Positions 50,077 through 57,847 of a stretch of DNA of 64,000 nt are shown in pieces (position 1 is the stretch's first letter; each line of letters starts with the position of its first letter). The translations under genes were made by a program, and so were the position numbers. Source of the DNA: Melioribacteraceae bacterium. Its GTDB lineage: Bacteria > Bacteroidota > Ignavibacteria > Ignavibacteriales > Melioribacteraceae. Location of the stretch: positions 31,563 through 95,562 of the forward strand of contig JAIOZI010000011.1 in assembly GCA_021740785.1 (NCBI GenBank). The letters run 5' to 3'. The notes beneath the pieces are model-generated. The model had not been told where the DNA came from. It made no database searches and saw only the letters and a list, made by a program, of their open reading frames with translations.

Positions 50077-51519
50077 TTAGAATCTCCAGCGAGTACCTAA
50101 TGAAAGTGAAAACTGGGTTGCATTATTCGCTGCCAATAAATTAGAAAAATGGAATGCTCCAAAGTTAAATTCAAACATTCCGGCGTCAATACCCGTACCA
50201 AAAGCCCACGAAGCTCCGTCACGACCACCAAACGAAACGCCGGTTCTAATAGGCCAAATATCCCATGGTCTCCATTCTACACCCAAAGACACACGCGGTT
50301 TGGTACTATTCCTTGCACGGTTATTAAAGCCTTGGTTGTAATCAACTGACACAGCCATAGTTCCCGGAATGCCTTCAATCGCATTGTGTAATTGAAAAGT
50401 TGCTCCCATTCTCAATGTAGTGGGAAGTGTTGTTGAAATTTCATCAACAACTTTACCGGATCCTTTTAATTTGTCAACAATCGAATCTCGTGCAGCTTCA
50501 TCCGTAATATCCTCAAATCGGGATGTACCGCTTGAGGAGTATTCTGCAACGTTCGACGACCAAGTAATACTTCCGATTTCAGTCATAGCCAGTGCAACAG
50601 TCCATGATTCATCAACCTGAGCAGTAAAACCGAAACCAAAACCAACACCACTTCCTGCTGTTGAAGGGAAAGCGCCCATATTACTTTCTTTTTCAACTCC
50701 GGATGAATCAAAATCATAGTTAATTCCGAAATCGTCAGAGAAAGAGGCATGACCCAATGTATTCGATTCAACTTCGATGATATTTTTCTCCAATGTACGT
50801 ACGGTTGTGTTAATTTCATCATAATCAATCATAGCGATACCCGATAATATTTTCAACGTAACACCGGCTGAAAATTTTTCAAAAGTATCGCCGAACAGTT
50901 CATTAAAATCGCGCGCATAACTTAGAGAATATTCTCTAATCCAATTCCCCCTGAATACAGAGCCATCAAAACTATATTCTTCTCCAATGGGATTTCCTTC
51001 CAACATCAAATCAATGATTCCTTCAGGGAAATCTACGTACATTGAAAAATTATCACTTATACTGAATGCAAAAGCGCCGATATCAGGATCCGCTCTATAG
51101 AGAACCTGAAGATATGGAATGGAGGCTCCCATCGTGATAATACCACCGGATTCAAATAGAGATCTCAACCTATCCTTATCTGCCTGATCAAGATATCTGC
51201 CGACTGTATTGCCTGTTGCCGGATCTTCAACACCTCCAAAGAAATAATTGAAATCCCCGATTGTCATAAAATCAGCGCCGCCCAAAAAATAAAAATTCGG
51301 AACGGGTAAAACTGTAGCAAACTCTAATTCATAATTCTCACCAAACATAAGATTGGCAGGATTTTTACCTAATGCATACACACCGCGTGAATTTGATGTA
51401 TATGTATTTGCCATCCCGGCAGAGATAGGATCAACAACACCCGAAGAACCTACAACCTGACCAAAATTCACTTGAGTAAGAATTAAAAATATCGATATAA
51501 TAAATATTAGTTTTTTCAT
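50077..51519 (-). CDS. DUF5723-like outer-membrane barrel protein
   Basis: 480 residues. Signal peptide to VNFGQ (about 21). GMANTYTSNSRGVYALGKNPANLMF is the hallmark of FadL/PorV-like or DUF5723 barrels: an N-terminal run before a predicted barrel ending SLSLGTRWRF with a C-terminal aromatic. It may be an outer-membrane protein linked to the T9SS. It lies 9 bases after the lipoprotein gene, in the same operon. Confidence 0.75.
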   Translation of the reverse strand: MKKLIFIISIFLILTQVNFGQVVGSSGVVDPISAGMANTYTSNSRGVYALGKNPANLMFGENYELEFATVLPVPNFYFLGGADFMTIGDFNYFFGGVEDPATGNTVGRYLDQADKDRLRSLFESGGIITMGASIPYLQVLYRADPDIGAFAFSISDNFSMYVDFPEGIIDLMLEGNPIGEEYSFDGSVFRGNWIREYSLSYARDFNELFGDTFEKFSAGVTLKILSGIAMIDYDEINTTVRTLEKNIIEVESNTLGHASFSDDFGINYDFDSSGVEKESNMGAFPSTAGSGVGFGFGFTAQVDESWTVALAMTEIGSITWSSNVAEYSSSGTSRFEDITDEAARDSIVDKLKGSGKVVDEISTTLPTTLRMGATFQLHNAIEGIPGTMAVSVDYNQGFNNRARNSTKPRVSLGVEWRPWDIWPIRTGVSFGGRDGASWAFGTGIDAGMFEFNFGAFHFSNLLAANNATQFSLSLGTRWRF

Positions 51520-51528
51520 ATTTTCCTC

Positions 51529-53196
51529 CTACTCCCCGCCATCTTCTGATTCAACACGGTAATTAATTCCACCATAGATTCTATATTCTAGGTGATCCTT
51601 TGCTCTAATTCTTACATATGTATCACTCGAAGTTCCAACTCCGTAAGAATTAATTGCAACCTGTGTAATCAAATATTTGGCTTGAGCAAATTTTTCAATG
51701 TCAGGTTTATCCAGTACAAGCGTTACTGTACCGGCTGCTGCAGTAGTTGGTCTTCCTTCAGGTCCGACTGTTGCCGGTGGAATTGTTATAACAGAAGAAC
51801 CGTCATCAGTTTTCATCATGAAGAGTGTATTCATGTTTTCATCAACAAAAGTAACTGAAGAAAGCACTGACAACCCGATTTTATTTCGATATTCCAATGA
51901 TAAGTTGAAGCTGTTCATCTTAAGAATTTCAGATCGATTGTCATCCGAAATATCTATATCAGATGTATCAGCATATTGAGCGTCTTCTGCCCTGATGATA
52001 AGAGGCGCCGTTAAATCGGCATCGAAACGAATTGAATCCTGATCGGAAACAACCTGTAAAGAATCCGGGCTTGTTGTGCTCGGTGCGATTAAAATTTTAT
52101 TTGCAAGTCGTATAACATCCGGAAGCTCAAGTAAAAAATCATTGAGGTTGGTATTAACTTCATTAAACGACCTAATATAAAGCTCACCCGCAATAAGAGA
52201 ATCTTTGTACAAAGCAGCCCCATCAAATCTGAGCGGAAATCTATTTGTCAATGACCCGTCATTTCTTCTATCAAATGCGGTAACTGTCAAAGAATCCATT
52301 ACAACTTGAAGGTTTTCCATTTCACCGATTGTAATGCCCCTAATATTTAATTTTGCCTGCTTAAAATCTATTGCATCTTTAAAGTTCTGAATGTCGTTAC
52401 CGAATCCCGTTTCAAATTCCTGGCTAGCATACGGTAATTTAATCCTCGCAATTGATCCGACCATTCTAGTCATTGTTATTGTACTTGAATTAACCTGAGA
52501 TGTAAAATTAATATCAACGCTTCCTTCGGCTGATACACGTCCAATAACCAAAAATCCCTTTGCGTTCTGGAAATCGTATGGTTCAAACAGCGGAGCTCCT
52601 TCAAACACTTTAAGTTCGGCGTAGGTATAATCTTCAAGCGGCAATTCGATAGGCTGAGTAGAATTTGCAGAAGCAACACCTGTTGCCGCAAGTTTTTCTC
52701 CGGTTAACCTGCTTTTAAAACCTGGCAATTCAATTGTGTAATTAACAGGAATATCAGAATCATTAACCACTTGTAGAAGAAATGCGCCGGACTTAAATTC
52801 GGCAGTATCAACATGATATTCCGGATCAGGATTAAAAACTATTGCCGACGATATTGTACTTCCATCTGAGGGTCCACTAAGATCCAAATCAACACCGGCA
52901 AGCGGATCGAAAGGAATTTTTAATGAATCCTGCACTGGAGTTTGTGTTCCTAAATCTGTTACATAGATAAAATAAAGGCTGTCATAAACACCTGCAGAAT
53001 CAAGAAGACCTATGTTTGGATTTTTAGCTGTGTCTAAAATTTCACCAAGATAAATAAAATCCTTCTTTAACGGAACGTTAAGTTCAACATCCCAAGACGG
53101 CATTACAACTTCTTTTGGTGAATCGAAACAGCCGGAGAGATAAAAAACCATCAGTACTAGTGATGGAATAGTAAGCTTCCTTAATATTTTTATCAT
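51529..53196 (-). CDS. Large surface or periplasmic lipoprotein, beta-rich
   Basis: 555 residues from ATG 53196 (53202 also possible). A terminator of the upstream gene lies at 53222-53247, so the open frame before 53202 is not translated in this mRNA. Lipobox YLSGC, then FDSPKEVVMPSWDVELNVPLKKDF. The rest is rich in Asp, Ser and Thr beta strands, with several SDQDSIRFDADLTAPLIIR-like segments. Family not recognised. Co-transcribed with the DUF5723-like barrel, perhaps as a barrel-lipoprotein pair. Confidence 0.65.
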   Translation of the reverse strand: MIKILRKLTIPSLVLMVFYLSGCFDSPKEVVMPSWDVELNVPLKKDFIYLGEILDTAKNPNIGLLDSAGVYDSLYFIYVTDLGTQTPVQDSLKIPFDPLAGVDLDLSGPSDGSTISSAIVFNPDPEYHVDTAEFKSGAFLLQVVNDSDIPVNYTIELPGFKSRLTGEKLAATGVASANSTQPIELPLEDYTYAELKVFEGAPLFEPYDFQNAKGFLVIGRVSAEGSVDINFTSQVNSSTITMTRMVGSIARIKLPYASQEFETGFGNDIQNFKDAIDFKQAKLNIRGITIGEMENLQVVMDSLTVTAFDRRNDGSLTNRFPLRFDGAALYKDSLIAGELYIRSFNEVNTNLNDFLLELPDVIRLANKILIAPSTTSPDSLQVVSDQDSIRFDADLTAPLIIRAEDAQYADTSDIDISDDNRSEILKMNSFNLSLEYRNKIGLSVLSSVTFVDENMNTLFMMKTDDGSSVITIPPATVGPEGRPTTAAAGTVTLVLDKPDIEKFAQAKYLITQVAINSYGVGTSSDTYVRIRAKDHLEYRIYGGINYRVESEDGGE

Positions 53197-53221
53197 TGCC
53201 ATCCCTTGTTTGATTATATGA

Positions 53222-53247
53222 AAAGACCGCACCATAATGCGGTCTTT
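53222..53247 (-). terminator. Rho-independent terminator of the T9SS-substrate gene
   Basis: AAAGACCGC (53222-53230) pairs with GCGGTCTTT (53239-53247), an 8-base loop between. Shortness of the minus-strand T-run (TTTTC) is offset by the stable stem. Confidence 0.8.
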
Positions 53248-53282
53248 AATAATAAAATTTTTTTGATATACAAGCAAAACAT

Positions 53283-54212
53283 TTATTTGATTAGAAGCAT
53301 TTTCCTGGTTTCAACAGATGTTCCAGTCCGCAATTCATAAAAATATGCTCCAGCTCCGAGACCTTCTGCATTAAACAGAATTTCATAAGTGCCTGCTTCT
53401 TTTTGATCGGCAACTAATGATTTGACTTCTTGTCCCAAACTGTTATATACTTTCAATGTTACGAATCCGCTTTCAGGAAGGCTGTATCTAATCACTGTTG
53501 AAGGATTAAACGGGTTTGGATAATTTTGCGATAGTTTGAAAACTTCCGGAATTAAGTCCTCGACTTTCCTTTCTTCAACACCAACAGTAGTTCCGCGTCC
53601 TCCGCCAAACTTTGAAAAGTGAGAAAGTTCCACATGTATAACATTATTTGTGAAGTCTAATGAAAAATCGATGCCGTCTGAATCCCAAACTCCACCGATG
53701 TAATAAGCAAATCCAATATCTTCTAATAATAAGCCTATTCCATCCAAAACTTCGTCCAAATCATCATCAATTGGAATATCTAAAAAAGCACCATTTCCCT
53801 CATTGAAAAAATAGTACTGATCAAAACCGGTAAACCCGGATGTATCGCCAATAACTGTTACACCAAGGAACATAAATAAATCAGGATCCCAGTATTCATC
53901 CGGTATTGCGCAATTGAAATCCAGTACGTTTACACCTATTGTGATGTTCTCATTTAATGCACCTGATTCAATTCCGAAAGTAGAACCTTCGATTGCATCA
54001 TAAAGACTTTGCCAGTTCGACATTGAACTTGGTAAAGTGGCAGCAGGTACTACAAAACTTTCGCCGGTCATAAAACTTCCCCCTTCAACAGTTGTTGAAG
54101 TTCCGTTACACGGATCAATTACTATAACCTGGTAGTTGACGGTATGTTCCTGTGCAATAATGGTTCCTATAAAAAACAACATAAACATTAATGAAGTAAA
54201 TATTTTCTTCAT
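53283..54212 (-). CDS. Secreted protein with T9SS C-terminal sorting domain
   Basis: 309 residues. Signal peptide ending TIIAQ (about 20), a beta-rich middle with several acidic turns (PIDDDLDEVLDGIG), then a type A sorting domain from about 220: KLSQNYPNPFNPSTVIRYSLP, ...LKVYNSLGQEV, ending ETRKMLLIK. The protein should pass the inner membrane by Sec and the outer membrane by the T9SS. Cargo part unrecognised. GGAGG-containing Shine-Dalgarno. Confidence 0.85.
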   Translation of the reverse strand: MKKIFTSLMFMLFFIGTIIAQEHTVNYQVIVIDPCNGTSTTVEGGSFMTGESFVVPAATLPSSMSNWQSLYDAIEGSTFGIESGALNENITIGVNVLDFNCAIPDEYWDPDLFMFLGVTVIGDTSGFTGFDQYYFFNEGNGAFLDIPIDDDLDEVLDGIGLLLEDIGFAYYIGGVWDSDGIDFSLDFTNNVIHVELSHFSKFGGGRGTTVGVEERKVEDLIPEVFKLSQNYPNPFNPSTVIRYSLPESGFVTLKVYNSLGQEVKSLVADQKEAGTYEILFNAEGLGAGAYFYELRTGTSVETRKMLLIK

Positions 54213-54332
54213 TATCTCCTCCTTTTATTATTAAATATGATTCCACCTCAATTTGCGATACAATTTACAAGAAAATTTCTAAAATTCAATTATCGGGCGA
54301 CAATTATGTATCACAAATCACAATAAAATTAT

Positions 54333-54353
54333 AACTGAAATTGACTTTCAGTT
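54333..54353 (-). terminator. Possible weak terminator after the cyclase gene
   Basis: AACTGAAA (54333-54340) and TTTCAGTT (54346-54353) around TTGAC. On the minus strand it lies 40 bases after the cyclase stop and an AT-rich tract follows. The stem has only A-T-rich pairs. Confidence 0.4.
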
Positions 54354-54391
54354 TTTGTATAATCCAACAAATTATAATAGTAAATAAAACG

Positions 54392-57300
54392 TCAAACCAA
54401 TTCATTCGATGCAACGACTTCATATACCTTTTCTTTCACACCTTTTACTAGGTGCATATCCATTTTCCCTTTACCTTTAGCGTCAATCTTTCCCCGGTAT
54501 TCAAATTCGTAGTAGTCTTTAACCGACTCATAAGTAGCGGCAGAAATATTTACTTCACCGGGTATTCCCGAACTTTCCATACGGCTTGCTGTATTAACAG
54601 TATCTCCCCAAATATCGTAAGTAAATTTTTTACTTCCAACAACACCGGCAATAACTTGTCCCGTGTGTACTCCCGCTCTCATCTCCCATTTAAAGGTCGA
54701 CTTCTCCCTTCTAGTCTTCATAAACTCCTGCATTTTCAGAGCTGCATAAACCACCCTAATTGCATGATCAAAGTTTTCTTCCGGCAATCCGCATGCCGCC
54801 ATATATGCATCACCAATAGTTTTTAGTTTTTCCAATTGATAATCTTCAACTATCTTATCGAAAGCCAAAAATATTTCATTTAGTTCGTTTACTAATTCAC
54901 CAGGCGGCTTCTCAGAGGCTGAACTTGTAAATCCTTTAAAATCCGTAAATAAAATTGTGACATTCTTGAATAATCTCGGCTCAACAAAACCTTTGGATTT
55001 TAATTCCGCAACAGTTGTTGAAGGCAGAATGTTATGAATCAATTCATCCGTTTTATCTTTCTCAAGCTCAAGTTCCCGGGTTCTGTCTTTAACCATGTTT
55101 GCCAGCTCAATATTTCTTCTTCTTACTTGAGCTGTTTTAATCAAATACAATAAATAGGTAAGTGAAATACCTATGAGTATAATTACAGTAATAAACCACC
55201 ACGTCTGCCAGAAAGGCGGATTAATTCTAAAATTGAAAGATGCCGGTTCACTCCAAATTCCGTCATCGTTTTTTGTTCTTACTTCGAACGTAAAACTCCC
55301 GGAAGGAATAAACGGGTATGCAGCATTCTTTTCATTTCCGTTAATCCAATTATTTTCAATTCCGACCAACCTGTGTTGATAAACCAAACGTGAGCGCGAG
55401 GTAAATGATACGGCATTAAAAATAAACCGCATATTATTTTCGGTATAACTAAAATCCGTAAACTCGGAAGGAAGCGTGTCGATCTCAGTCTCATCATCAA
55501 TAATTTTGATATTATTCAGGTAGGTTTTTGCGGCAACAGAATTAGGCTGATATCTTAAATCGAACCGTGTTAATCCATTATGCGAACCAAAATATAAAAC
55601 ACCATTCTTACTTAGAAATACAGATCCCATATTCATTTCTGTTGCGGGAAGTCTATCAGCAGTATTATAAACTCGAAATGCCGATGCTTTCAGACTGTCG
55701 AATGCATCGTATTCAAATCTTGCAAGACCTTGATTAGTTCCGAAATAAATATATTTGTCATATACCTCCGCCCAATAAACGGTATTTCCCGGTAGACCAT
55801 CGGCACGGGTAATGTTGGTTATTGCGCCCGTCTGATCTAACTTCGATACTCCGCCGCCTTCAGTTGATAACCAGATATTTCCTTGTGGGTCTTCGGTTAT
55901 ATCCATTACTGAATTTGTTATAAGTCCCTTCTCTTTATCAAAAATTTCAATATTATCGGAGTATTTAATTGCACCGGCAATCTCTGAACCTATCCAAACA
56001 TTATTTTTTGAATCGACGAATACTTTATAAATCCAACCTTCACCGATATAATTATTAATCTCGTCAATTGGCGAAATGTTTTGTGTTCGGAAATCGAAAT
56101 AAACAACACCGCCCCCGGTTCCAAGCCAGATGCCGTTTTCATCTTCAGCCATACTTAGTACCGGATCGGGAATTCCCGTATCGTTATTAAAACTCACGAT
56201 TCCGTCTCTCCCGATTTTTGAAATTCCACCAAAACCTCCGGCCCAAATATCTTTATATTTATCTTCGATAATAACTGCAACTTGATCACCAAATAAACCA
56301 TCCTTTGAAGTAAGAATTTGAACTCCATTTTTTGTTATCTTGCAAATTCCTTCTCCAAAAAGCCCAACCCAAATGTTATGGTACGAATCCTCCAATACAC
56401 CGTAAACCTCATTACTCGGAATAGAATTTTCGGTATCAAAAATCAAGAATCTTTCAGCGGGTAATTGATTTAGTCCGCCTCCCCCGGTACCAAACCAAAT
56501 ATCCCCTCTTTGATTTTCCAGGGCACAATAAATAGTATTGCCGGCTAATCCTAAATTAGTACTGATATGCTGGGTGAAATTTTCGCCATCATAAAATAAT
56601 AGTCCGTTGCTGCTTGTGCCTATCCAAAGGTTATTGTATTGGTCTTCAAGAATTGTAAAAATTTTATCTCTGAGAGCCGGATGCCGATTAGTAAAATTTG
56701 TAAATCGTTTCCCATCGTAACGTGAAAGACCATTTTGTGTGCCGATCCAAATGTAATTGCGGCTGTCTTTGTAGATTGCCGTTACCGTATCATTTGCTAA
56801 TCCACGTACATTTCTTGTATGATAATAGTTATAGTCCTCATCTTCGATAGTCACAATTCCATACCCTAATGTTCCAATCCACAGCTTGTTCTCAGCGTTA
56901 AGAAATGCTCTTAGCGAATCGGTTGGAAGTTTATTTTTCGAAGTGATAGAAGTAAAGGATCCGTTTTCGAATTTATTTAATCCGCCGAAGCCAGTTGTTA
57001 TCCAATATTCGCCCGGGTTAGCCTCAGCTATTGCGTAAATAAATTCATCAGTTAGTCCATCTTCTTTTGTATAGTTTGTAAATTCATTTCCGTCTAATAC
57101 CGAGATTCCTTGATTTGTTCCAAACCAGAGTTTTCCCGAAGAATCTTCATAAATAGTTCTAACATGGTTATACACTAATCCGCTGACAACCGAATAATTC
57201 CGGAAAGTTTCTCCATCATATTTTGATAACCCGGCTTCTGTACCAATCCAAAGGTATCCTTTACTGTCTTGATAAAGTGAATATATAGAATTTTGCGGCA

Positions 57301-57409
57301 AGCCGTCATCGGTCGTAAATTTATACATCGATAACGTTTGCGAAAAACTTATTCCTTGAATAAGAAAGAAAAATATTACTAAAGAAATTTTTATTTCTCT
57401 ACCGTGCAC
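54392..57409 (-). CDS. Propeller-sensor adenylyl cyclase receptor
   Basis: 1005 residues. Signal peptide 1-24; then 14 Reg_prop repeats (WIGT...GL...YDG pattern), enough for two seven-bladed propellers, to about 640; a Y_Y_Y domain (about 665-735, VYQHRLVG...FEVRTKNDDG); one membrane helix 737-758; a coiled linker with the cyclase transducer element NILPSTTVAELKSKG; a class III cyclase from 818. Metal ligands D823 (FTDFKGF) and D867 (KTIGDAY). K863 and D932 (YDIWG) are ATP-selecting, N939 and R943 stabilise the transition state. So it should make cAMP on the inside when something binds outside. GTG start; no Shine-Dalgarno clear. Confidence 0.92.
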   Translation of the reverse strand: MHGREIKISLVIFFFLIQGISFSQTLSMYKFTTDDGLPQNSIYSLYQDSKGYLWIGTEAGLSKYDGETFRNYSVVSGLVYNHVRTIYEDSSGKLWFGTNQGISVLDGNEFTNYTKEDGLTDEFIYAIAEANPGEYWITTGFGGLNKFENGSFTSITSKNKLPTDSLRAFLNAENKLWIGTLGYGIVTIEDEDYNYYHTRNVRGLANDTVTAIYKDSRNYIWIGTQNGLSRYDGKRFTNFTNRHPALRDKIFTILEDQYNNLWIGTSSNGLLFYDGENFTQHISTNLGLAGNTIYCALENQRGDIWFGTGGGGLNQLPAERFLIFDTENSIPSNEVYGVLEDSYHNIWVGLFGEGICKITKNGVQILTSKDGLFGDQVAVIIEDKYKDIWAGGFGGISKIGRDGIVSFNNDTGIPDPVLSMAEDENGIWLGTGGGVVYFDFRTQNISPIDEINNYIGEGWIYKVFVDSKNNVWIGSEIAGAIKYSDNIEIFDKEKGLITNSVMDITEDPQGNIWLSTEGGGVSKLDQTGAITNITRADGLPGNTVYWAEVYDKYIYFGTNQGLARFEYDAFDSLKASAFRVYNTADRLPATEMNMGSVFLSKNGVLYFGSHNGLTRFDLRYQPNSVAAKTYLNNIKIIDDETEIDTLPSEFTDFSYTENNMRFIFNAVSFTSRSRLVYQHRLVGIENNWINGNEKNAAYPFIPSGSFTFEVRTKNDDGIWSEPASFNFRINPPFWQTWWFITVIILIGISLTYLLYLIKTAQVRRRNIELANMVKDRTRELELEKDKTDELIHNILPSTTVAELKSKGFVEPRLFKNVTILFTDFKGFTSSASEKPPGELVNELNEIFLAFDKIVEDYQLEKLKTIGDAYMAACGLPEENFDHAIRVVYAALKMQEFMKTRREKSTFKWEMRAGVHTGQVIAGVVGSKKFTYDIWGDTVNTASRMESSGIPGEVNISAATYESVKDYYEFEYRGKIDAKGKGKMDMHLVKGVKEKVYEVVASNELV

Positions 57410-57437: not shown

Positions 57438-57761
57438 TTAATTTATGGGTTCATCTTTATTCGGTCCAACAAATCCAAAATGCTGCTGTGGATGGTTATC
57501 TACTTTTATTTCACCGAAACGTGATTCATATTTATTGATGTTGTCTTGTAAAGCCTTCATTAACATTTTAGCATGCTGTGGGGTTGTAATAATTCTCGCA
57601 TGAACTTTTGCTTTTGGTACTCCCGGAACAACGCGAGTAAAATCAATTATAAATTCTGCCGGTGAATGAGTAATAATTGCTAAGTTCGAATAAATTCCTT
57701 CGGCTTCTTTTTCATTAAGCTCAATATTTATTTTCTGCGATTTCGATTGTTTATCATTCAT
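57438..57761 (-). CDS. DUF3467-family protein
   Basis: 107 residues from ATG 57761, with GGAG 8 bases before; an open frame reaches 57803 but overlaps a terminator. IELNEKEAEGIYSNLAIITHSPAEFIIDFTRVVPGVPKAKVHARIITTPQHAKMLMKAL is the DUF3467 pattern. Function unknown; small cytoplasmic protein. It precedes the cyclase gene by 28 bases, so the two may share a transcript. Confidence 0.85.
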   Translation of the reverse strand: MNDKQSKSQKINIELNEKEAEGIYSNLAIITHSPAEFIIDFTRVVPGVPKAKVHARIITTPQHAKMLMKALQDNINKYESRFGEIKVDNHPQQHFGFVGPNKDEPIN

Positions 57762-57793
57762 AATTTCTTCTCCGTGACCTAATATTAAAAAAA

Positions 57794-57828
57794 ATACCCA
57801 CAACTTGAAACAAGCAAATTGTGGGTAT
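57794..57828 (-). terminator. Rho-independent terminator of the TPR lipoprotein gene
   Basis: ATACCCACAA (57794-57803) and TTGTGGGTAT (57819-57828). On the minus strand it is followed by eight T. Confidence 0.88.
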
Positions 57829-57847
57829 CAATATCAATTAAAAACAA

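Follow-up and report, generated by a model that had tools for sequence, protein, structure and literature searches.

A predicted double-propeller receptor joined to a class III cyclase, with linker lengths in steps of seven residues, in Melioribacteraceae and their relatives

Introduction

Propeller sensors are the standard phosphorelay inputs in polysaccharide-eating Bacteroides. On the cyclase side, the closest described systems are the Rv1625c-type enzymes, the mammalian membrane adenylyl cyclases and GC-A, which have a catalytic domain, a preceding helix and an NILP region in common with the protein described here; we take its cyclase domain to belong, like theirs, to class IIIa. The relevant sections of PMC3243724 give the layout of the Bacteroides propeller sensors as two seven-bladed propellers, a YYY domain and a transmembrane segment. 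Linker lengths in sevens have been described for phytochrome-activated diguanylate cyclases and designed phytochrome adenylate cyclases, and such classes also occur in photoreceptor kinases, according to the passages concerned in PMC9587094, PMC5995499 and PMC6798134; the first of these, where it treats natural PadCs, gives 54% differing by multiples of seven and 38% by -4.

Here we describe, in a window of 64,000 nucleotides (the whole stretch of DNA that was analysed), a gene that we call the propeller-cyclase. The double propeller and Y_Y_Y domain are common to this protein and to the Bacteroides hybrid two-component sensors (periplasmic domains of BT4663, BT3049 and BT4673); those end in a histidine kinase and a receiver, whereas the propeller-cyclase ends in a cyclase. 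The propeller sensor and the single membrane helix set it apart from the class IIIa receptor cyclases, and it is probably a homodimer. Compared with the phytochrome cyclases, which have a light sensor and another or an engineered output, the propeller-cyclases fit sevens in 137 of 140 cases. Its domain order, six catalytic residues, match to BT4663, linker spacing, re-pairing among relatives and conserved neighbourhood are reported below from sequence and computation.

Results

The propeller-cyclase gene (54392-57409, minus strand, as are all its parts) has a GTG start and 1005 codons plus stop. Residues 1-24 (57338-57409) form a predicted signal-peptide-like N terminus, with hydrophobic windows starting at residues 5-10, a model helix at 2-18 and homologues that start alike. 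Profiles, model and structure matches predict two seven-bladed propellers in residues 25-623 (55541-57337), where 14 blade motifs were located at residues 48, 88, 129, 171, 215, 255, 298, 341, 382, 422, 466, 506, 548 and 602. They are followed by a Y_Y_Y domain at 669-729 (55223-55405; 42 bits against a Pfam cut-off of 26.6), a membrane helix predicted from hydropathy at about 736-754 (55148-55204; model helix 737-779), a predicted coiled-coil linker at 755-796 (55022-55147) with V..RT and NILP landmarks and of length class 56, and a class III cyclase catalytic domain at 812-989 (54443-54976). Guanylate_cyc was the only domain after the membrane helix in a Pfam scan, histidine kinase and receiver being absent. 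This confirmed the domain order given in the original prediction, in which a Reg_prop propeller, Y_Y_Y and one membrane helix lead to a cyclase and not to a histidine kinase. BT4663 was the top structural match of the modelled sensor. Identity with the T9SS protein PorZ was considered separately and rejected, the match reaching 69.1 bits against an NCBIfam equivalog score of 260.

The catalytic domain carries the metal-binding pair D823 and D867, the ATP-selecting pair K863 and D932 and the transition-state pair N939 and R943, and therewith every residue required for cAMP synthesis as judged from the sequence. The claims that the metal Asp and Asn/Arg residues are intact and that the Lys/Asp pair is of the ATP type, as in adenylyl cyclases, were both borne out, and loss of the metal Asp residues in close homologues, which would have meant a dead cyclase, was not seen: none of the six residues varied across the 22 close sequences that were aligned. 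Among the best 120 of 7732 database relatives, 77 are propeller-cyclases, and 74 of these have the complete set; residues were read by alignment column in 69 (68 complete, P0038 having Gln for Lys) and by eye in eight (six complete, P0044 and P0049 without the Asn). By sequence, the top matches among solved structures were adenylate cyclases 5 and 8. In the part of PMC5967339 dealing with the exchange, E497K/C566D, which introduces the Lys/Asp pair, turned a guanylyl into an adenylyl cyclase. The product of the propeller-cyclase is likely cAMP. That the enzyme makes cGMP or is inactive would agree with the three of 77 relatives that have lost one catalytic residue; with the ATP-type pair, the metal residues and the Asn/Arg residues all present in our own protein, and adenylate cyclases as the best structural relatives by sequence, we consider this very improbable.

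The linker was measured with three ungapped landmark profiles (one where Y_Y_Y ends at the membrane, one on V..RT and one on the NILP before the cyclase) on 155 propeller-cyclases, and the 140 rows in which all three exceeded set thresholds were kept. The distance from first to last landmark was 56 in 80 rows, 63 in 23, 70 in 17, 77 in four, 84 in 11 and 98 in two, so that multiples of seven account for 137 of the 140 kept rows; the exceptions were 64 (twice) and 52 (once). Among the 15 rows dropped for weak landmarks, the distance was again 56 in six; the other nine lie outside the series (50, 66, 103, 104, 131, 135, 206 twice and 228), some of these holding a domain between the landmarks. 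As a control, seven other segments were measured in 139 of the 140 rows, with control landmarks taken without a score filter. Off-mode linker rows differed by multiples of seven in 57 of 60 cases, and the same count in the five control segments that varied gave 0/9, 0/75, 0/9, 0/68 and 21/112 (16 expected for the last); the two further segments showed no length variation. Since the rows share ancestry and some loci duplicate proteins from the database, length changes were counted on the cyclase tree; the minimum was 26, or 24 when only the multiple-of-seven classes are considered.

A similar spacing was met in cyclases with other or lost inputs. The distance from V..RT to NILP was 21 in 25 of the 34 such rows with a clear NILP (nine of 43 had none), and the remaining nine read 28, 105 and seven misfits, one of them incomplete. 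The rows with 21 include the receiver-cyclases of related Ignavibacteria (L068, L117, L118, L120, L122 and L123), whose cyclase is 51-58% identical to that of the propeller-cyclase and in which Response_reg (8/8 scanned) replaces the propellers and the membrane helix; the cyclase there is therefore likely driven by a phosphorelay. At L117, L118, L120 and L122, from another family of the order, Response_reg and cyclase proteins form tandem pairs (six of the eight proteins were domain-scanned). A corresponding heptad rule was tried on propeller proteins that have other outputs and dropped, as their distances to the phospho-His are spread over several phases, although the first landmark distance was 35 in 15 of the 35 rows (of 55) that had both landmarks. 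With several phases among the propeller kinases, the seven-residue rule is not general for the propeller sensor.

The linker spacing suggests a dimeric coiled coil whose phase matters. Against this, the helix is interrupted at 780-786 in the single-chain model, where pLDDT drops below 50 at 772-789. Spacing and motif are compatible with an S-helix, which PMC1592074 describes as a conserved helical stretch of some 40 residues joining sensor to output; the linker is at most a candidate S-helix. Among the papers listed by a literature search on linker periodicity, no propeller receptor was recognised.

These spacings bear on whether the propellers gate the enzyme at all. The cyclase could be controlled from inside or always on, the propellers serving as an anchor or adhesion part. 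One relative, G004, has in the slot after DUF3467 (L115, G004:C1, 1435-2577) a cyclase with a membrane helix and the same linker spacing behind a short exported-looking N terminus, without any Reg_prop or Y_Y_Y match, so the sensor is not always needed; L115 is also one of the rows with a V..RT-to-NILP distance of 21. Sensors moreover diverge fast: in 11 relatives the sensor is 33-38% identical to ours and the linker plus cyclase 63-73%, a pattern also to be expected of a constant output fed by differing inputs. A single seven-residue phase in nearly every kept row is, however, hard to square with a passive tether, and linker length matters for coupling in phytochrome cyclases according to PMC9587094 and PMC5995499. 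We regard control from inside or constant activity as rather unlikely.

The neighbouring genes lie on the minus strand in the order DUF3467 protein, propeller-cyclase, T9SS-sorted protein, lipoprotein-like protein and DUF5723 protein. The DUF3467 gene directly upstream (57438-57761; PF11950, 114.6 bits) was read from an ATG at 57761, its listed ORF beginning at a TTG at 57803. Downstream are a T9SS-sorted secreted protein of 309 aa (53283-54212; TIGR04183 40.8 bits, PF18962 33 bits), a lipoprotein-like protein of 582 aa without a Pfam or NCBIfam family (51529-53277), whose LSGC is presumably a lipobox, and a DUF5723 protein (50077-51519; PF18990, 128 bits). The last is probably a barrel, and its match to the PorV family (NF033709) was 24.6 of 90 bits, far under the cut-off. 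A terminator-like hairpin of 15 pairs with a T tail (57793-57829, minus strand) sets off the TPR gene upstream of DUF3467; it is suggestive only, since promoter-like matches number 31 against 34.3 and terminator-like ones five against 6.9, chance level for both classes.

A DUF3467 match occurs in all 77 genomes of the order, our own included. In these 77 genomes, with up to ten candidates scored in each, at least 18 relatives have a propeller-cyclase, whole or in fragments. Among the 18 listed, the cyclase lies directly downstream of DUF3467 in 15, of which 13 were read on the contig that carries the main match and two, G019 and G036, from N-terminal fragments; it does not in G058 and G063, and G029 was counted neither way. 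In 13 of the same 18, out of the at least 18, a homologue of the T9SS-sorted protein follows within 800 bp on the same strand. Among genomes without the cyclase, DUF3467 adjoins the T9SS protein in G055, G056, G061 and G062 and the lipoprotein in G050, G072 and G074, and G064, G067, G068, G070 and G071, among others, have these locus genes on separate contigs. The cyclase gene has thus been inserted into, or lost from, an envelope-type locus.

Such a setting raises the question of the signal. The propellers might sense the state of the cell envelope, through for instance the T9SS-sorted protein, the lipoprotein or the DUF5723 protein, and not a diffusible food molecule. The closeness of the T9SS-protein homologue in most listed relatives speaks for this, as does the finding that no SusD, glycoside-hydrolase or lyase family was present among 43 scanned window proteins (these include few of the ORFs below 200 aa, and some of the 43 were scanned at E 1e-6). 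Against it, adjacency of genes shows no binding, and cargo and lipoprotein occur in genomes without the cyclase, so these neighbours do not need it. Envelope sensing of this kind seems to us improbable. No polysaccharide-utilisation genes were found among the 43 proteins, unlike the situation of the Bacteroides hybrid sensors, and none of their loci was seen beside the gene in a window that reaches only 6.6 kb on one side. The window holds one TonB receptor about 40 kb off and a Rha78A-type immunoglobulin domain at 1058-2053.

Some further features of the neighbours were recorded. The N-terminal part of the T9SS-sorted protein is conserved, with an H.S(K/R)..GG motif and no named family, and at least 87% of the protein is covered by 100 of its 120 listed relatives, its own copy included. 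No fold is claimed for it, the best Foldseek match having an E value of 1.7e-5 and a TM-score of 0.23 (model pLDDT 83.6). For the 582-aa lipoprotein-like protein, 50 of the 77 genomes of the order gave a match, in many cases a partial one. A long inverted repeat lies in the 179 nt that separate the cyclase and T9SS genes (54213-54391; fold z -2.3, equalled by 1 of 200 shuffles), and its arms are two-mismatch CRP-like matches (54254-54269 and 54307-54322).

The same genome offers both other propeller outputs and candidate cAMP receptors. It has 14 Y_Y_Y places, 13 of them above the Pfam cut-off; the fourteenth, below it, has no Y_Y_Y in Pfam. Eleven of the 13 proteins are of histidine-kinase type, in line with the expectation that propellers usually feed His-Asp relays, one has SpoIIE and one is the propeller-cyclase. 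The SpoIIE-type phosphatase is C-terminal in the Reg_prop/Y_Y_Y protein L143 (G000:C70), another unusual output. Of six cyclase-domain places only the propeller-cyclase has Reg_prop; the others are a cyclase domain alone (with a hydrophobic N-terminal half by eye), two with CHASE2 (L003 and L004), one with TPR and a short one.

The original prediction had called for a search for Crp-like cAMP receptors, and this yielded candidates among nine cNMP-binding places. L007 has a CRP layout, and among the solved sequences closest to it are 3r6s, 4byy and 4cyd, which we take to be GlxR, a protein that binds cAMP. The alignment of L008 with SthK, whose entry names it a cyclic nucleotide-gated potassium channel, spans almost the whole of L008 (E 9.5e-85). 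By sequence, either could read cAMP, and nothing ties either to the propeller-cyclase gene. CRP sites had also been proposed near polysaccharide or T9SS genes. A T9SS-sorted protein does adjoin the gene, but CRP-like sites are not enriched: with a CRP consensus and up to two mismatches, the window holds 34 against 27.9 +/- 5.0 expected, and 15 of 100 shuffles reach 34.

The domain trio turned out to be widespread. From 7997 candidates sharing most words, which were scored, 7732 database relatives passed, and Reg_prop, Y_Y_Y and Guanylate_cyc occur together in 77 of the best 120, our own copy included, with 43 lacking the full trio. Some already bear the name 'ligand-binding sensor domain-containing protein/class 3 adenylate cyclase'. 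In the best 80 of 582 confirmed loci on genome contigs, propeller-cyclases were found in Melioribacteraceae, Flavobacteriales, Saprospiraceae, Kapaibacterium, Treponema and other Spirochaetota, hence in Bacteroidota, Ignavibacteriota and Spirochaetota. The proposed search for cyclase-ended Reg_prop/Y_Y_Y proteins was therefore productive, and the idea of a different output for the same sensor held as to the output, not as to its rarity. Among the open-licence PMC papers listed, we recognised none that describes an adenylate or guanylate cyclase fused to a Reg_prop or propeller sensor, and the word propeller is absent from PMC1183210 and PMC1592074. The propeller-cyclase interpretation is plausible, yet less unusual than first proposed; its interest is raised by the seven-residue rule, the repeated re-pairing and the conserved locus.

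Re-pairing was examined on two trees, in both of which sampling follows similarity to our own protein, propellers may be missed at contig ends, and gain and loss are indistinguishable. On a cyclase tree of 196 domains made by a quick method (154 with a propeller label, that is, a propeller or Y_Y_Y profile match, 41 without and one unlabelled), the label switches at least 15 times, seven of the switches being forced by well-supported branches. On a FastTree sensor tree of 132 rows (77 with cyclase, 55 with other output), which met uneven composition and long branches, the output switches at least 16 times, ten of them forced. No single event joining sensor and cyclase is visible on these trees, which suggests that propeller and cyclase were joined or separated on many occasions. 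On the sensor tree, the smallest well-supported set holding our own protein comprises 21 rows, all cyclases, so the pairing looks stable in its own group.

Discussion

We think it probable that the propeller-cyclase is a dimeric double-propeller/Y_Y_Y receptor in which an outside molecule shifts a coiled-coil rod, likely changing the amount of cAMP made from ATP. The propellers would be exported and lie outside the cell, joined to the cyclase by one predicted membrane helix and a linker in heptad multiples, and the receptor would dimerise. Binding of an outside molecule to the propellers would move the putative rod, and this movement may alter cAMP output; the candidate readers of the cAMP are the genome's own CRP-like protein and SthK-like channel. 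Given the complete cAMP-making residues and the outside-type sensor, an outside signal is likely converted straight to cAMP, bypassing the usual phosphate relay.

A more specific version has the receptor report envelope status by reading an exported surface protein of its own operon, within the conserved locus from DUF3467 to the T9SS cargo, with a coiled-coil rod that changes in evolution only by seven residues at a time and cAMP passing to both the SthK-like channel and the CRP-like regulator; we hold this to be quite unlikely.

In the general form that we favour, the propeller input that elsewhere feeds phosphorelays is here plugged into a cAMP enzyme. The seven-residue rule provides a natural set of linkers with which to probe the coupling of a membrane receptor to its cyclase, and candidate signals for the propeller come from the conserved locus. 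Together, linkers and locus make the message from propeller to cyclase directly testable.
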